The translations under genes were made by a program, and so were the position numbers. A DNA stretch of 64,000 bases from contig CAMATH010000034.1 of the NCBI GenBank assembly GCA_945860955.1, forward strand, positions 1-64,000. The letters are read 5' to 3'. Numbering within the stretch: the stretch's first letter is position 1; every line of letters starts with the position of its first letter. The DNA is from Planctomicrobium piriforme. GTDB lineage: Bacteria > Planctomycetota > Planctomycetia > Planctomycetales > Planctomycetaceae. This document shows, one piece after another, positions 51,784-60,081 of this stretch. Below the pieces are notes generated by a model that saw only the letters and a list, made by a program, of their open reading frames with translations, did not search any database and was not told the origin of the DNA.

Positions 51784-52410
51784 TCAACGAACCTGTGCGA
51801 ATTCCTTGGCCCACTGCGCGGGTGTCCCCAGGGTGTCGGGGGCGAAGTGAATGAAACGAATCCATCCCGCCCGATCGACGATCACGACTCCCTCACGGGG
51901 CAAATCGGTCTTCTCGTCGCAGGCCCCCCATTGGCGGTGGACTTCCAACTGATTCAGGTCAGACAGCAAAACGAACGGAAACGCTCCGCCACGTCCAATC
52001 GCCGCGCGATTTTCCGCTGGCCGAACGGCGGTGATTCCAATGACAACCCCACCCGTCCGTTCGAAATCGGCCCAATTCTCTTTGATTCCCTGCGCGACGA
52101 GCGAATGATCGACCCCTTCGCGAGCGTCCAGGAAGGCGACCAGGATCTTCTGCCGACCGATGTACCGCTGCAATCGCAGTAACTTCATCGATTCATCGTG
52201 AAGCTGAAAAACAGGGGCTTGTCGGATGTACGCCCGTTCGGGGGCGGCCGGGGGGTCATACTGTCGCGACAGCTTCCAACCTACGGCGGCCAGAATCACC
52301 AAGGCGGCCAGCGGGATCGTCCAAAACAGGGGACGCCAGGATCGCGCCACAGTGGTCATGAGTTCAAAGACAAATGAGTGAACGGGGAATTCCGGCAGAA
52401 CCGTTGTCAT
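51784..52410 (-). CDS. Membrane-anchored redoxin-like protein lacking catalytic cysteines
   Basis: Protein of 208 residues with one TM helix (FWTIPLAALVILAAVGW) and a C-terminal AhpC/TSA- or thioredoxin-like domain. Recognisable parts are APVFQLHDES, then KILVAFLDAREGVDHSLVAQGI, VVIGITAV and a strand REGVVIVDRAGWIRFIHFAPD. At the position of the peroxidatic Cys (TxxC/CxxC after the FLxF strand) there is DAREGV, with no cysteine. The only Cys is in QWGACDEKT. It therefore probably lacks redox activity of the usual kind. ATG 52410 is listed; an internal ATG at 52359 is equally likely. Confidence 0.55.
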   Translation of the reverse strand: MTTVLPEFPVHSFVFELMTTVARSWRPLFWTIPLAALVILAAVGWKLSRQYDPPAAPERAYIRQAPVFQLHDESMKLLRLQRYIGRQKILVAFLDAREGVDHSLVAQGIKENWADFERTGGVVIGITAVRPAENRAAIGRGGAFPFVLLSDLNQLEVHRQWGACDEKTDLPREGVVIVDRAGWIRFIHFAPDTLGTPAQWAKEFAQVR

Positions 52411-52776: not shown

Positions 52777-55700
52777 ATGTCACCCATTCCATCGGAAGAA
52801 TCACCTCCGTCGATCCCGCCTGGTCCGCAATCGCCAGAATCGAAGTCAGCCACTTCGTTTTCCGTCGAAATGGTTGAACAGACCATTATTAGCGATGCCT
52901 TCAGCGCTTCGGTTGAGATTTCCCCCAAGGCGGAGACCCGACCGACTAGCCAGTTTTCGGCCCCGCTGTCCGACGCGGAACCTGGGCGATTCTTTCCTGG
53001 AACACTTTTTGCCAATCGCTACCGTATTGTTTCCCTGCTGGGGCGCGGGGGAATGGGCGAGGTGTACCGGGCCGACGATTTGACGCTCGATCAGCCGGTG
53101 GCGCTCAAGTTTCTTCCTCAAGCGACGACAGTAGACGCGGCCGCCATCCAGCGGATTCGGCACGAGGCCCGGCTGGCTCGGCGAGTCACCCATCCCAACG
53201 TCTGCCGGGTTCACGACATTGGTGAGTGGGCAGGGGACCACTTCCTGTCGATGGAGATCATTGAAGGTGAGGATCTCGCGGTGTTGTTGCGCCGCATCGG
53301 CTGTCTGCCCCGCGAAATGGCTTTTGAAGTCTGCCGACAGGTCACGGCGGGGGTCGCCGCCGCCCATGCGCGCGGCGTGCTGCATCGGGACCTGAAGCCG
53401 GGCAATATCCTGATCGATTCACAGGGGCGGGTGGTCATCACTGACTTCGGACTTGCGCTTCCCAGTGAACAGGCACTGAAACAGCGTTCCTCCGTTGGCA
53501 CATTGCCCTACATGTCTCCTGAACAGATACTGGGGCAGGGCATCAACGAGCGGAGCGATTTGTATTCCCTCGGCCTGGTGATTCACGACGCGTTCACTGG
53601 CAAACGCGTGTTTCGGGCGAACACCGGGGAAGAACTCCTGAAGTTGCGGCGGACCACATTTTCCGTCGAAGGGCGGTTGTCTCCCGATCTTGAGCCGGCG
53701 GTTCGCGAGCTGATCGAACGGTGTCTGGCGTTCGAACCAGCCAATCGTCCGAAGTCGGCAATCGAAATTCACGACGCGCTGTGCCGGGCGGAATCCCCCC
53801 AGAGAGTTTCTGTCGCGACACCGGTCGCCACTCCGCTGAACAACATTCCGCCCCAGTTGACGAGTTTCATCGGGCGTGAGCGGGAACGGAGTGAGGTCCG
53901 CCGACTCCTCGGTCAGAACCGGCTCGTGACGCTGGTTGGACCAGGCGGCGCGGGCAAGACCCGTTTGTCGCTCCATGTGGCGACCGAGGAACTCGACCAG
54001 TATGGCGACGGCGTCTGGATGGTGGAACTCGCCCCGCTGGTCGATCCCGCACTCGTCCCGCAGACCATCGCGTCCGTGCTGGGTATCCGAGAGGCGGGGG
54101 GACGTCCCATTCAGGAAACCCTCGCTGATCAACTGGGTGGTAAGCGACTGTTGATCGTTCTCGACAATTGTGAGCACGTCGTCGCGGCGTGCTCGATGGT
54201 GGCTGACCTGCTGCTCAAGCGGTGTCCGGGCGTCAAGATACTGGCGAGCAGTCGTGAACGGCTCGGAGTTCCGGGGGAAGCGACGTTTCAGATTCCGTCA
54301 CTTTCCTTACCGACCGGTCCGCCCCCCGCGACTGCGGCCAGCGCCCTGGGGTACGAGGCGGTCGCGCTGTTTGTCGACCGGGCGAAGTCCGCGGGGAGCC
54401 GATTTGAACTCACCGACGCGAACGCCGCGGTCGCGGCGCGAATCTGCCGACGGCTCGATGGAATTCCCCTGGCGCTCGAATTGGCGGCGGCCCGTACCCG
54501 ATCGCTGACGCTGGAAGACCTCGAACGGCGACTCGATGACTGCTTTCGGATATTGACCGGGGGGAGCAAAACCCTTCTTCCCCGGCAGCAGACACTGAGG
54601 GCGCTCATCGACTGGAGTTACGATCTGCTACACGAAAACGAGCGGTTGCTGTTCAGTCGACTGAGCGTTTTCGCGGGGGGATTTTCGTTGGCCGCTGTCG
54701 AGCAGGTGTGTGCCGGCGGAGGAATTGAAGATTTCGAGATCCTTGACCTGATAACAAGTCTGGTCGACAAGTCGCTGGCGACGATCGATTCTTCGCGGGA
54801 GGAGACACGTTATGGGCTGCTGGAAACTGTTCGGCAGTATGCTCGAGAACGGTTGAACCACTCGGGAGAGGCGGCCGATTATCAGCGTAGCCACGCGGAC
54901 TTCTACCTCAAATTCGCGGAAACCGGGGCTCCCCAGTTGGAAGGGGTGGAGGGGGCCACCTGGGCCGACCGATTCGAACTCGAACACGACAACCTGCGTG
55001 GGGCGTTTGATTTCGCACTCACGGCGCCAGAGATGGCGGGTTCTGCGTTGAAGTTGGTGAATTCGCTGTGGGTCTTCTGGTACAAGCGGGGGTTCTATCG
55101 CGAGATGGCGGCCCGCATGCCGGCCGCGCTCGCCGCCACCAGCTCGGCGGGCGCTACGGAAGACCGCGCTCAGGGGTTGCTGGCCGCCGCCAATGCGCAT
55201 CTGATTCAGGGGGATTACGACTTGGCGTGCCGGCAGTTTGAAGAGGCATTGCAGATCCGGCGGGAAATTGGCACACCGCTGCCGATCTGGAATGCGCTGT
55301 TCAACTATGGCAACGCCTTGAATCTGGTGGGGAATTTGGACGCCGCCCGGACCTGCCTGGAAGAGGCGCTCAAGATATCTGAAGGGATCCCCAAGACGGT
55401 CGCTGGCTCGCGGTGCAATCTGGGGGAAACGCTGGCGCTGGCGGGTGAGATCGCCGAGGCTCGGGTCCATTTGTCCGCTGCCCGTGAGGCGTTTCGTGCC
55501 GCGAAGAACCCGGCGGCCGTGGCGGAAATCTCGGATTTTCTTGGTCGGCTGTGCCAGCGTGAAGGGAATCTCAACGAGGCCGAGTCGCTGTACCGCCACG
55601 CGCTGGTGACGTTGAGAGAGAACCGGTTTGTGGGGTTCGGGTATTTTGTCGGACCGTATTCCTTCGCGGGTTTGTCACTCGCGCGCGGCGAATTGGAACG

Positions 55701-55950
55701 GGCGGCAAGGCTGTACGGTGCCCACGACGCGCTTCGCGAACGCCTGGGGACTCCCCTGCCCCCCGTATTCCGGCCGGAGTACGACCAGGCGCTGGCCGCG
55801 CTGCGTTCCTCCCTGGGGGAGCGAAAGTTCAACGAACTTCTCGCGGCGGGAAGGGCGATCTCGGAAGAACAGGCGATCGCGCTGGCGCTTGGTGAAACGG
55901 AGGGAGATACACTAGGCTCATCGCGTTGCAACGTCACCGAGAGCCACTGA
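52777..55950 (+). CDS. Ser/Thr protein kinase - STAND/NB-ARC ATPase - TPR protein
   Basis: Three-part signalling protein of 1,057 residues. A Pkn-type kinase domain (about 82-345) has the P-loop GRGGMGEVYRA, Lys in VALKF (K111), HRDLKPGN (203-210) and DFG (223-225), so all catalytic residues are intact. It is followed by a STAND/NB-ARC-like ATPase: Walker A GPGGAGKT (388-395), Walker B LLIVLDNCEHV (Asp463), LASSRERLGV and GIPLALELAAARTRSL. The last 350 residues are TPR-like helical repeats (DYDLACRQFEEALQIRREI, DAARTCLEEALKISEG, NLNEAESLYRHALVTL). STAND modules are usually switched on by ligand-driven oligomerisation. It is one base from the FHA-cyclase gene and surely in its operon. Confidence 0.93.
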   Translation: MSPIPSEESPPSIPPGPQSPESKSATSFSVEMVEQTIISDAFSASVEISPKAETRPTSQFSAPLSDAEPGRFFPGTLFANRYRIVSLLGRGGMGEVYRADDLTLDQPVALKFLPQATTVDAAAIQRIRHEARLARRVTHPNVCRVHDIGEWAGDHFLSMEIIEGEDLAVLLRRIGCLPREMAFEVCRQVTAGVAAAHARGVLHRDLKPGNILIDSQGRVVITDFGLALPSEQALKQRSSVGTLPYMSPEQILGQGINERSDLYSLGLVIHDAFTGKRVFRANTGEELLKLRRTTFSVEGRLSPDLEPAVRELIERCLAFEPANRPKSAIEIHDALCRAESPQRVSVATPVATPLNNIPPQLTSFIGRERERSEVRRLLGQNRLVTLVGPGGAGKTRLSLHVATEELDQYGDGVWMVELAPLVDPALVPQTIASVLGIREAGGRPIQETLADQLGGKRLLIVLDNCEHVVAACSMVADLLLKRCPGVKILASSRERLGVPGEATFQIPSLSLPTGPPPATAASALGYEAVALFVDRAKSAGSRFELTDANAAVAARICRRLDGIPLALELAAARTRSLTLEDLERRLDDCFRILTGGSKTLLPRQQTLRALIDWSYDLLHENERLLFSRLSVFAGGFSLAAVEQVCAGGGIEDFEILDLITSLVDKSLATIDSSREETRYGLLETVRQYARERLNHSGEAADYQRSHADFYLKFAETGAPQLEGVEGATWADRFELEHDNLRGAFDFALTAPEMAGSALKLVNSLWVFWYKRGFYREMAARMPAALAATSSAGATEDRAQGLLAAANAHLIQGDYDLACRQFEEALQIRREIGTPLPIWNALFNYGNALNLVGNLDAARTCLEEALKISEGIPKTVAGSRCNLGETLALAGEIAEARVHLSAAREAFRAAKNPAAVAEISDFLGRLCQREGNLNEAESLYRHALVTLRENRFVGFGYFVGPYSFAGLSLARGELERAARLYGAHDALRERLGTPLPPVFRPEYDQALAALRSSLGERKFNELLAAGRAISEEQAIALALGETEGDTLGSSRCNVTESH

Positions 55951-55951
55951 A

Positions 55952-57721
55952 ATGCCCGAACTGAACGCGATAGGCCCCGAGCCCCACCAGCGCTGGCAAA
56001 AAGACCTTCCAGAAAACGAGGGGGTCTGCCTGGGGCGTGCGCCGCGCCAGGGCTGGCGTGTGCCCTGGGATATCATGATCTCGCGCGAGCATGCGCAACT
56101 CGAATGGCGCGACGGCAAGCTGTTCGTCAAATGCCTCGAGACGGCTCGCAATCCCATCGTCTTCCGGGACATTCCCAACCGCGAATTTCAGTGTCTTCCG
56201 GGAGACACCTTCCGTATCGGGTCGACCCGGTTTGTCGTTTCCGTGACGGTCGCCTCTCCCAGCACCATCGCTTTGGAAGAGCGGACATTCGATCGGGAGG
56301 AGGTCCGAAACGCTTCATTTGGCGATCCCACCCGTCAGATGGAGCTGATCTCCCGAGTGCCCGAATTGATCCGATCGTCGCGAACCGACGAGGATCTGGC
56401 GGTTGAACTGGTCTCGTTGCTTCTCGAAGCGCTGCCACGAACCGACGTCGCGGCCGTCGTGCAGTTCAACGATCCCAGCCAGATTTCCTCCGGGAAACCA
56501 ACCATGATGCGTTGGGACGGGCGGAACTCGACAATGGAGCGGTTCGTTCCCAGCTTGCGGCTGATGGAAAAGGCGGCGTTGACCGGGAATAGTGTCGTCC
56601 ATCAATGGAATCAAGCCGCTCCCGACGACTCGGTGAACGCCAACTATACGGTGTACGGCAATCTCGACTGGGCGATCTGCACGCCGCTGACCCATGAATC
56701 GTGCCGGGGCTGGTACCTGTATGTCTCGGGAAAAACCTCGATTGGCTCACCGGTCGACAAGCTGAAAAGTGATTTGCGATTCATCGAACTGATGGCGGAG
56801 TTTATCGGATCGGTTCGCCAGATCCGGCAGCTTGAGCGGTTGCAAGCCGGGATGAGCCAGTTCTTTTCACCCACCGTGCTGGAAACACTGAACGCGGAAA
56901 AGGCGAATATCCTGCTGCAACCTCGCGAGGGGGACATCACGGTGATCTTCTGCGACGTGCGCGGCTTTTCCAAGATGGTGGAAGGCCGGCCGCAAAACAT
57001 GCTTCAGATGCTGGAACGGGTGAGCCAGGCGCTGGAGGTGATGACGCGCGGAATCGTCAAACAGGATGGCATCATCGCCGACTTTCAGGGGGACGCCGCT
57101 TTGGGTTTCTGGGGCTGGCCCGTGGCGATCGTCGATGGACCGATTCCCGCCTGCCTGGCCGCGTTGGAAATCCAGGCCGATTTTCGGCGTGCCTCGGCGG
57201 AACCCGGACATCCCCTCGCGGATTTTCGAATTGGTGTCGGAATCGCCCATGGTCGCGCAGTCGCAGGGCGCATCGGGTCAGAATTGCAGGCGAAAGTCGG
57301 GGTTTTTGGCCATGTGGTCAATTTGGGATCGAGACTGGAGGGCTTGACGCGTTTACTTGGCGTGTCGATTTTGATTGATGATGCGACGGCGGCACACGTT
57401 CGGGACGCGGGGCCGAATCTCGCCGCGAGGGTTCGCCGATTGGGATGGATGCGTCCTTATGGATTTGATAAGGAACTCGTCATTCACGAGTTGTTACCAC
57501 CCGCAGGCGATTCGAATTCCGTTCCGGACAGTGAAATCCTGGTTTTTGAATCGGCTGTCGACCTGCTCCACGCCGGGGACTGGGGTCGCGCCGCCTCGCG
57601 ATTGGAGTCACTGCCCGAGAACGATGGCGTCCGCAATTTCCTGTTGCGCTGGATCCACAAAAACGGCGGTACTCCTCCCGCCGTTTGGGACGGTGTGATC
57701 GGCTTGGAGGCCAAATCATGA
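55952..57721 (+). CDS. FHA - GAF - class III nucleotidyl cyclase
   Basis: Signalling cyclase of 589 residues. The N-terminal FHA domain (about 20-100, phosphothreonine-binding) has LGRAPRQGWRV and SREHAQLEW. A GAF-like region lies at about 130-290 and the class III cyclase homology domain at about 325-500. Both metal Asp residues are present: FCDVRGFS (D335) and QGDAALGFWG (D381). The transition-state Asn and Arg are kept in VVNLGSRL (N457, R461). The two purine-selecting positions differ from adenylate cyclases: Asp377 replaces the usual Lys, and His454 replaces the usual Asp. The product may be cAMP, cGMP or something else. The FHA probably reads phosphorylation by the co-encoded kinase. 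A one-base gap follows the kinase stop. Confidence 0.9.
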   Translation: MPELNAIGPEPHQRWQKDLPENEGVCLGRAPRQGWRVPWDIMISREHAQLEWRDGKLFVKCLETARNPIVFRDIPNREFQCLPGDTFRIGSTRFVVSVTVASPSTIALEERTFDREEVRNASFGDPTRQMELISRVPELIRSSRTDEDLAVELVSLLLEALPRTDVAAVVQFNDPSQISSGKPTMMRWDGRNSTMERFVPSLRLMEKAALTGNSVVHQWNQAAPDDSVNANYTVYGNLDWAICTPLTHESCRGWYLYVSGKTSIGSPVDKLKSDLRFIELMAEFIGSVRQIRQLERLQAGMSQFFSPTVLETLNAEKANILLQPREGDITVIFCDVRGFSKMVEGRPQNMLQMLERVSQALEVMTRGIVKQDGIIADFQGDAALGFWGWPVAIVDGPIPACLAALEIQADFRRASAEPGHPLADFRIGVGIAHGRAVAGRIGSELQAKVGVFGHVVNLGSRLEGLTRLLGVSILIDDATAAHVRDAGPNLAARVRRLGWMRPYGFDKELVIHELLPPAGDSNSVPDSEILVFESAVDLLHAGDWGRAASRLESLPENDGVRNFLLRWIHKNGGTPPAVWDGVIGLEAKS

Positions 57722-57788
57722 CCCCGTCACGGCACACCGCACCCCATACGCTGCCATTTCGAGCCGCTCCTACCACGGGAATCCTGAA

Positions 57789-58550
57789 ATGAAGGTCGAG
57801 ATTCTTGGATCCGCATCCCCCGATGATGGAGGCCAGTTCCTCATCTCTTATTTGTGCAATGATCAGGTCGCGATTGATGCCGGTTGTCTCGGACTGTTGA
57901 CCCCCGTGAGCCGACAGCTCGCCGTCAATCATGTCTTCCTTTCGCATTCGCACATCGATCATACCGGCAGCCTGCCGATCTTTCTCGATAACATCTTCGC
58001 GCCGGGGCCGGATTGCGTGCAGATTCACGGCATCCCCGACACGCTCGATTCCGTCCGGGGCGATCTTTTCAATGACCGCCTCTGGCCCGACTTTGTCCGG
58101 CTCTCGCAACCCACGAATCGATTCCTGGAACTGCTTCCGTTAGAGGTCGAACGGCCCGTCGTGGCCGACGGCCTGACCGTCCTGCCGGTCGAACTGCGAC
58201 ACGTTGTCCCGACCGTGGGGTTCATCGTCTCAGACGCGAACGCGACTGTTGCGTTCGTGTCCGACACGCTGCCGTCCGACCGGATTTGGGAACTGCTGCG
58301 CGCCGTCAAGAATCTGAAAGCGGTGTTTCTCGAAGCGAGTTTTCCCAACTCCATGGACTGGCTCGCGGAAGCGTCGGCCCACCTGACGCCGCGGACATTC
58401 GCCTCGGAATTGAAGAAACTCAATCGCGAGGTCGACGTGATCGCGGTCCACCTCAAGCCGCGCTATCGGCAGACGTTGATCCAGGAATTGACCGAACTCA
58501 AGCTTCCCCGGGTCTCCGTGGGGGAAATCGGGCGGGTTTATCATTTTTAG
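57789..58550 (+). CDS. MBL-fold hydrolase resembling class II cyclic-nucleotide phosphodiesterase
   Basis: Metallo-beta-lactamase-fold protein of 253 residues. The zinc motif HSHIDH (H53, H55, D57, H58) is followed by TGSLPIFLDNIF. The N-terminal LGSASPDDGGQFLISYLCND and the absence of lactamase features recall class II (PDE1-type) cyclic-nucleotide phosphodiesterases, whose motif is H-x-H-x-D-H-x-x-G. The third and fourth ligands are plausible in PVELRHVVPTVGF and VAFVSDTLPSD, with the late His in VIAVHLKPRY. Its position directly after a cyclase gene on the same strand (67-base gap) supports a role in degrading the cyclase product. This is inference; it could also be another MBL hydrolase. 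Confidence 0.68.
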   Translation: MKVEILGSASPDDGGQFLISYLCNDQVAIDAGCLGLLTPVSRQLAVNHVFLSHSHIDHTGSLPIFLDNIFAPGPDCVQIHGIPDTLDSVRGDLFNDRLWPDFVRLSQPTNRFLELLPLEVERPVVADGLTVLPVELRHVVPTVGFIVSDANATVAFVSDTLPSDRIWELLRAVKNLKAVFLEASFPNSMDWLAEASAHLTPRTFASELKKLNREVDVIAVHLKPRYRQTLIQELTELKLPRVSVGEIGRVYHF

Positions 58551-58722: not shown

Positions 58723-60081
58723 TCACCGCGCCGCCACGGCCTCGTCAATCGCCTCCACCGCCACGTCGCAAATTCGCTCCAGCAGGTCGGGAGGCATCGC
58801 AGGGGCGGGCATTAGAACCACCACATCTCCCAACGGCCTAAGGATCACACCCCGCTTCCTCGCCGCCAACGTGACCAGATGACCCGTCCGGCGAGGCGAA
58901 GGAAAGGACCGCTTCTGATCTCGATCCTCAACCAGCTCAATCCCCACCATGATTCCCTTGCGGCGAATCTCCCCCACGTGCGGGTGCGTCGCCAGTCGTC
59001 CCAGACGATTTTCCAGAACCCGCTCCAGTCTGTCGACATTGGCGAGAACATCGTTCCGCTCAAACAGGTCGAGTGACGCCAATGCCGCGGCGCAGGCGAG
59101 TGGATTGCCGGTATACGTGTGACCGTGAAAGAACGTCCTTCCTTCCTGCGGCTCACCCAGAAACGCGTCGTAAATCTCGGTCGTCGTCAAAGTCGCCGCC
59201 AGCGGGAGATAGCCGCCCGTGATTCCCTTTGACAAGCAGAGCAGATCGGGAACGACTCCCTCCTGTTCGCACGCGAATAATGTTCCGGTGCGACCAAATC
59301 CGGTCGCCACTTCATCGACGATCAACGGGATCTCCAACTCGGCGGTCAGGTCTCGAACCCGGCGCAGATATCCCGGGGGATGTACCAGGATCCCCGCAGC
59401 CCCCTGCACGAGTGGCTCGATCACAAACGCCGCGATTTGTGACTGATGTTCGCGCAACGTCGCTTCCAACTGACGGTCGCAATCGGCCAGGTATTCCGCC
59501 GGGGTCACCCCCACCGGCGTGCGCCAGGCGACCGGTGCCGGTACCCGCACGGAATGAAACAGCAATTGGCCGTACAGACCATGAAACAGATCGATCCCTC
59601 CGACGCTGACGGAGCCAATCGTGTCGCCATGGTAGGCCCCCGCGAGCGAAACATAGAGGTTGCGATTCTCGGCCCGATCCCCCTTTTGCCGGTGATATTG
59701 CAGAGCGATCTTGAGGGCCGCCTCGACGGCGGTGGAACCGTTGTCGGAGTAGAAGACATGCTCCAGGCCCTCGGGAACCCGCCGCACCAGACGGTCGGCG
59801 AGTTCGATCGAGGGGACATTTCCCAATCCCAGCAATGTGCTATGGGCGACGCGGTCGAGTTGTTGGCGAATCGCAGCGTCGATCTCCGGCACACGATGCC
59901 CGTGGACGTTGCACCAGAGCGACGAGACGCCGTCCAGATACCGGCGCCCCTGGACATCGATCAGTTCAAAACCGACCGCATCTGCGATGATGGGGGATTC
60001 TTCACGGGCATGAGCCCGCATGGGGGTGAAGGGATGCCAGACATGGTGATTGTCGACGCAACGGAGTTTTTCGGGGGTCAT
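58723..60081 (-). CDS. bioA: Adenosylmethionine-8-amino-7-oxononanoate aminotransferase
   Basis: PLP-dependent enzyme of biotin synthesis that transfers an amino group from SAM to KAPA, giving DAPA. The 452-residue product has the class III aminotransferase motifs: [11 protein letters not shown] at the start, [49 protein letters not shown] and the PLP Lys in [14 protein letters not shown]. The N-terminal HPFTP and the YHGD motif favour BioA over other class III members. Its start overlaps the stop of the SGNH gene (ATGA type), so the two are co-transcribed. No other bio genes are in the window. Confidence 0.93.

Follow-up and report, generated by a model that had tools for sequence, protein, structure and literature searches.

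A planctomycete kinase, FHA-cyclase and phosphodiesterase gene trio as a possible second-messenger switch with an altered cyclase pocket

Three adjacent planctomycete genes, encoding a Ser/Thr kinase (P0001), an FHA-cyclase (P0002) and a class II-type phosphodiesterase (P0003), may form a self-contained second-messenger switch, in which P0001 would act on P0002, P0002 would produce cGMP and P0003 would remove the product. We give this reading about an even chance. The genes were identified as three same-strand (+) open reading frames at positions 52777-58550 of the window, the 64,000-nucleotide stretch of Planctomicrobium piriforme DNA that was analyzed (contig C34 of the 8.4-Mb genome G000). 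Open reading frames and Pfam matches agreed with the initial annotation of three same-strand genes with the claimed domains, the cyclase beginning one base after the kinase. The features of the locus are:

52777-55950, + strand: P0001, Hanks kinase-STAND-TPR protein (Pfam; motifs read directly).
55952-57721, + strand: P0002, FHA-cyclase (Pfam, homologue count, residue survey, tree).
57080-57094, + strand: cyclase motif D377-F-Q-G-D381, with D377 at the ATP-specifying Lys position (alignment to solved cyclases and 89-row survey).
57299-57334, + strand: cyclase motif with G450, the second base-contact residue, and the transition-state pair N457 and R461 (residue survey).
57718-57792, + strand: 24-codon ORF that bridges the cyclase-MBL gap, its ends overlapping the stop of P0002 and the start of P0003 (sequence).
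57789-58550, + strand: P0003, metallo-beta-lactamase (MBL) phosphodiesterase of class II type (PF02112, PDE1 matches, conserved ligands).

The start codon of P0002 lies one base past the stop codon of P0001 (TGA A ATG), and P0002 and P0003 are separated by 67 nt. The trio is flanked by a divergent upstream neighbour (51784-52410, - strand) and a convergent downstream neighbour (58723-60081, - strand), and is therefore an isolated operon. No stop codon interrupts the frame of the 24-codon ORF in the sister species either, and the ORF is possibly a translational-coupling relay from P0002 to P0003. dN/dS values against the sister species were 0.10 for P0001, 0.06 for P0002 and 0.15 for P0003, and purifying selection acts on all three genes.

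P0001 consists of a Ser/Thr-rich N-terminal tail, a Hanks-type Ser/Thr kinase (residues 82-326), a STAND/NB-ARC-like ATPase (about 360-700) and a TPR region (about 798-978). The kinase was matched by Pkinase at 8.6e-49 and contains the catalytic Lys (VALKF), HRDLKPGN and DFG; TPR matches were also obtained. Matches to NB-ARC/AAA/nSTAND-type P-loop profiles were weak (about 1e-4, below the Pfam cut-offs), but the motifs of a STAND NTPase were present, namely Walker A GPGGAGKT, Walker B LLIVLDN and a GxP-type GIPLALELAA. About 90 eukaryote-like kinases are encoded in the host genome. Of 150 family genomes, just one other, that of the sister species G079, has a relative that matches P0001 over its full length (E below 1e-100); the last 74 residues of that relative lead into the cyclase with the one-nucleotide spacing unchanged. 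The kinase and MBL frames of this metagenome-assembled genome (L039, L076, L077) are interrupted, possibly by assembly or else by decay.

P0002 has an FHA domain (residues about 24-98), a signalling helix and a class III nucleotidyl cyclase domain (325-480); its middle part appears GAF-like and its short C-terminus TPR-like. Guanylate_cyc matched at 2.1e-9, and FHA scored exactly at the 20.7-bit cut-off. The phosphothreonine-binding residues of the FHA domain (G28, R29, S44, R45, H47 and N67) are kept and are nearly invariant among relatives. Homologues of P0002 were present in 146 of the 150 family genomes. Of the metal-binding Asp residues, D335 is the first and D381 the second; both were found in 89/89 survey rows, as was R461, and N457 was found in 88/89. 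Because the metal Asps and the Asn/Arg pair are kept, the family is predicted to be active, and its members are probably live enzymes.

The base-contacting residues of P0002 are altered, a point missed by the initial annotation, which did not remark on the loss of the ATP-specifying Lys. In place of the adenylate cyclase pair, Lys plus Asp/Thr, P0002 has D377 and G450. The Lys position was occupied by Asp in 86 of the 88 family rows, by Glu in two and by Lys in none. Glu, the classic guanylate cyclase residue, occurs at this position in a single genus (L174, L175; G028, G070). At the second base-contact position, all PDE-linked rows counted had Gly, and all rows linked to a kinase with a dCache sensor had Thr apart from one with Ser; position 379 was variable (Q 70, L 14, H 3, I 2). 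Lys and Thr are retained in the control cyclases from this genome and from the phylum, among them the canonical FHA-cyclase of the same genome (C48, L079; DKFIGD). The Asp/Gly pair was also observed in a cyclase elsewhere in the phylum (L180:817-2574, G152), and in light of this cyclase the altered pocket may be wider than the bacterial family. An AlphaFold model of P0002 (pLDDT 55) was too poor for testing the pocket.

On these residues P0002 probably does not use ATP. A FHA-containing adenylate cyclase is known in Synechocystis (Cya1, Slr1991), and P0002 resembles this type in having an N-terminal FHA domain followed by a class III cyclase, but differs in the Asp that replaces the base-specifying Lys and in being linked to a PDE and kinases. 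The same circuit could still run on cAMP as the messenger, P0002 then being an adenylate cyclase whose pocket is unusual. The nearest solved sequence relatives of P0002, photoactivated adenylyl cyclases, are consistent with this, and the mycobacterial adenylate cyclases Rv1900c and Rv0386 work with unusual base-contact pairs. Nevertheless, all 88 family rows have an acid where adenylate cyclases have the Lys that touches N1 of adenine; an acid would repel adenine N1 and suits a ring N-H donor, and the canonical FHA-cyclase of the same genome retains the K/T pair. We therefore regard cAMP as an unlikely product.

The non-ATP-derived messenger predicted for P0002 is most likely cGMP. Guanylate cyclases carry Glu at the Lys position and a variable second residue, the pair being Glu-Gly in Synechocystis Cya2 (Sll0646) (PMC4215837), and GTP specificity is said to rest on the Glu contact (PMC7384201). 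GTP use is predicted from the loss of Lys to an acid, which brings the pattern nearer to guanylate than to adenylate cyclases; it is uncertain since known guanylate cyclases have Glu, whose side chain is longer by one carbon than that of Asp. P0002 resembles the guanylate cyclase Cya2, whose structure (2w01) was among the significant PDB sequence matches, in having an acid in place of Lys and Gly as the second base-contact residue (PMC4215837). It differs from Cya2 in having Asp instead of Glu and an FHA sensor.

P0003 was matched by PDEase_II (PF02112) at 8.3e-13, with 48.6 bits against a cut-off of 23.7. Yeast PDE1 was its only PDB sequence match and also the top match in a fold search, which was performed on a model of moderate confidence (pLDDT 64). 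Residues SHSHIDH, H138, D159 and H221 as well as FNDxxWPD were identified in P0003; like PDE1, it combines an MBL fold with the metal ligands and FNDxxWPD. Across 57 rows, there is almost no variation in the metal ligands or in the N95/W99/P100/D101 block that P0003 has in common with PDE1. The typical class II motif HxHLDH is not reproduced exactly, as P0003 has HSHIDH with Ile for Leu, and it differs from class II phosphodiesterases also in being physically paired with a cyclase. The SHxHxDH of P0003 does fit the signature [S/T]HxHxDH of the atypical class II group Rv1339/YhfI/CpdA (PMC9293780). P0003 is thus a class II-type phosphodiesterase with a putative cyclic-nucleotide substrate, and the resemblance to such enzymes proposed initially was confirmed by profile, sequence and fold.

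Among the 150 family genomes the exact trio was found in the window species and its sister G079 only. The three-gene arrangement is young, and a conserved three-gene system was rejected as it is absent beyond the sister species. The cyclase and the MBL gene were, on the other hand, adjacent in 28 of the 56 genomes having an MBL orthologue; these pairs come from nine genera. Chance could hardly produce so many, given that each genome has thousands of genes. The cyclase usually comes first, but the MBL comes first in two genera (g35, g43), and this swapped order argues against inheritance of a single arrangement. In 28 genomes, L136 (G099) and 27 others, including that of one same-genus species, the PDE orthologue was found without an adjacent cyclase, so the PDE may serve other enzymes too. 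The conserved synteny invoked in the initial annotation consequently fails for the trio and holds for the cyclase-PDE pair. A bacterial class III guanylate cyclase next to a partner gene is known from the XC_0250/XC_0249 cGMP pathway of Xanthomonas; there, however, the partner is a cGMP receptor and not a kinase and PDE, and the cyclase has lost the transition-state residues that P0002 keeps (PMC3770947). In genus g56, the cyclase-MBL pair has as its neighbour a gene of a family without Pfam matches (L047:11377-12717).

In the tree, two cyclase clades separated cleanly (SH-aLRT 99 and 100). The DG clade holds all PDE-linked copies including that of the window, and the DT clade holds the copy present in most genomes sampled. 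In 17 of the 31 DT loci inspected, a kinase with a dCache sensor lay directly upstream on the same strand, against an expected kinase share of about 1.4% of genes in the host genome (taking the roughly 90 kinases and a gene number estimated from genome size). The pairing of a kinase with a neighbouring FHA-cyclase therefore recurs, and its sensor differs: dCache in the sister clade, STAND/TPR in the window. An MBL gene lacking a cyclase adjoins a kinase-nSTAND1-FGE gene in genus g53, and the Pfam-less family of g56 is found beside these two genes (L107:6160-7914).

The kinase gene could alternatively be an unrelated neighbour, leaving only the cyclase and the phosphodiesterase as a unit. A kinase-STAND gene accompanies a DG-clade cyclase only in the window species and G079, and no kinase was located immediately upstream of the remaining PDE-linked cyclases. 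The one-nucleotide spacing kept in G079, the isolated operon and the low dN/dS speak against a chance neighbour, as does the parallel kinase-cyclase pairing of the sister clade, and we consider this explanation rather unlikely. The kinase link thus fails with cyclases of the own clade beyond G079 and is supported by the upstream kinase-dCache genes of the sister clade.

STAND ATPases, Hanks kinases and cyclases are all known in defence systems, and a role in phage defence had been raised for consideration in the initial annotation. PADLOC gave only kinase- and cyclase-domain matches on the trio and no match on eight neighbouring genes. PycC models scored 47 bits on P0002, compared to 114 bits on the ordinary FHA-cyclase of the same genome. 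P0002 shares the class III fold of Pycsar PycC, but a Pycsar system combines PycC with a PycTM or PycTIR effector; no effector gene was found with the trio and no defence match among the eight neighbours. Membership of Pycsar or another defence system was rejected, as the canonical cyclase scores higher on PycC and the neighbours are clean. The occurrence of all three protein types in defence and the PADLOC kinase matches are what an anti-phage signalling system would have in its favour. These matches are at the domain level, however, and nonspecific by the canonical-cyclase control. Defence genes are patchily distributed, whereas almost every genome of the bacterial family carries a member of the cyclase family, and a dedicated phosphodiesterase is in keeping with signalling that can be reversed. 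A defence function is very improbable, and the suggestion found no support.

A related question is whether the product of P0002 might be a cyclic pyrimidine nucleotide (cUMP or cCMP), as with Pycsar cyclases, or something else uncommon. An acid could also accept the N3-H of uracil. BcPycC recognizes UTP with residues that include an Asp, in uncertain register with D377, and the CTP-specific EaPycC has F and Q near the metal Asps, comparable to F333 and Q379 (PMC11224242). Equating BcPycC D94 with D377 was dropped, because the metal-Asp spacing in related PycCs leaves the register uncertain. Against such a product stand the lower PycC score of P0002, the lack of defence genes among the eight neighbours and the poor conservation of Q379, which make it quite unlikely.

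In the preferred reading, with cGMP as messenger, binding of a signal by the STAND/TPR half of P0001 would change the kinase. The kinase would then form phosphothreonine on itself or on a partner, and the FHA domain of P0002 would read the mark and turn on the class III cyclase, whose residues point to cGMP as product. P0003, a member of a phosphodiesterase family, would destroy this product. The receiver of the messenger would be encoded elsewhere in the genome, where several cNMP-binding genes are found. The cyclase-PDE pair would be the older unit; the kinase-STAND gene presumably joined it not long ago in the window lineage, paralleling the kinase-dCache gene that partners the cyclases of the sister clade.

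To our knowledge, hardly any outputs of planctomycete kinases have been identified, and guanylate cyclases are uncommon in bacteria; our literature search found no paper on planctomycete FHA-cyclases. As a bold and distinctly doubtful extension, the acid-for-Lys cyclases, near-universal in the family, might make a non-cAMP messenger, possibly not cGMP either, and have diverged into one clade driven by kinase-dCache proteins and another served by a PDE of its own, with Ser/Thr phosphorylation wired in through FHA docking. The recurrent kinase-FHA-cyclase link and the paired PDE offer a directly testable output for planctomycete kinases, and, judging by the altered pocket, a gene that nearly all members of a bacterial family possess would yield a messenger other than cAMP.
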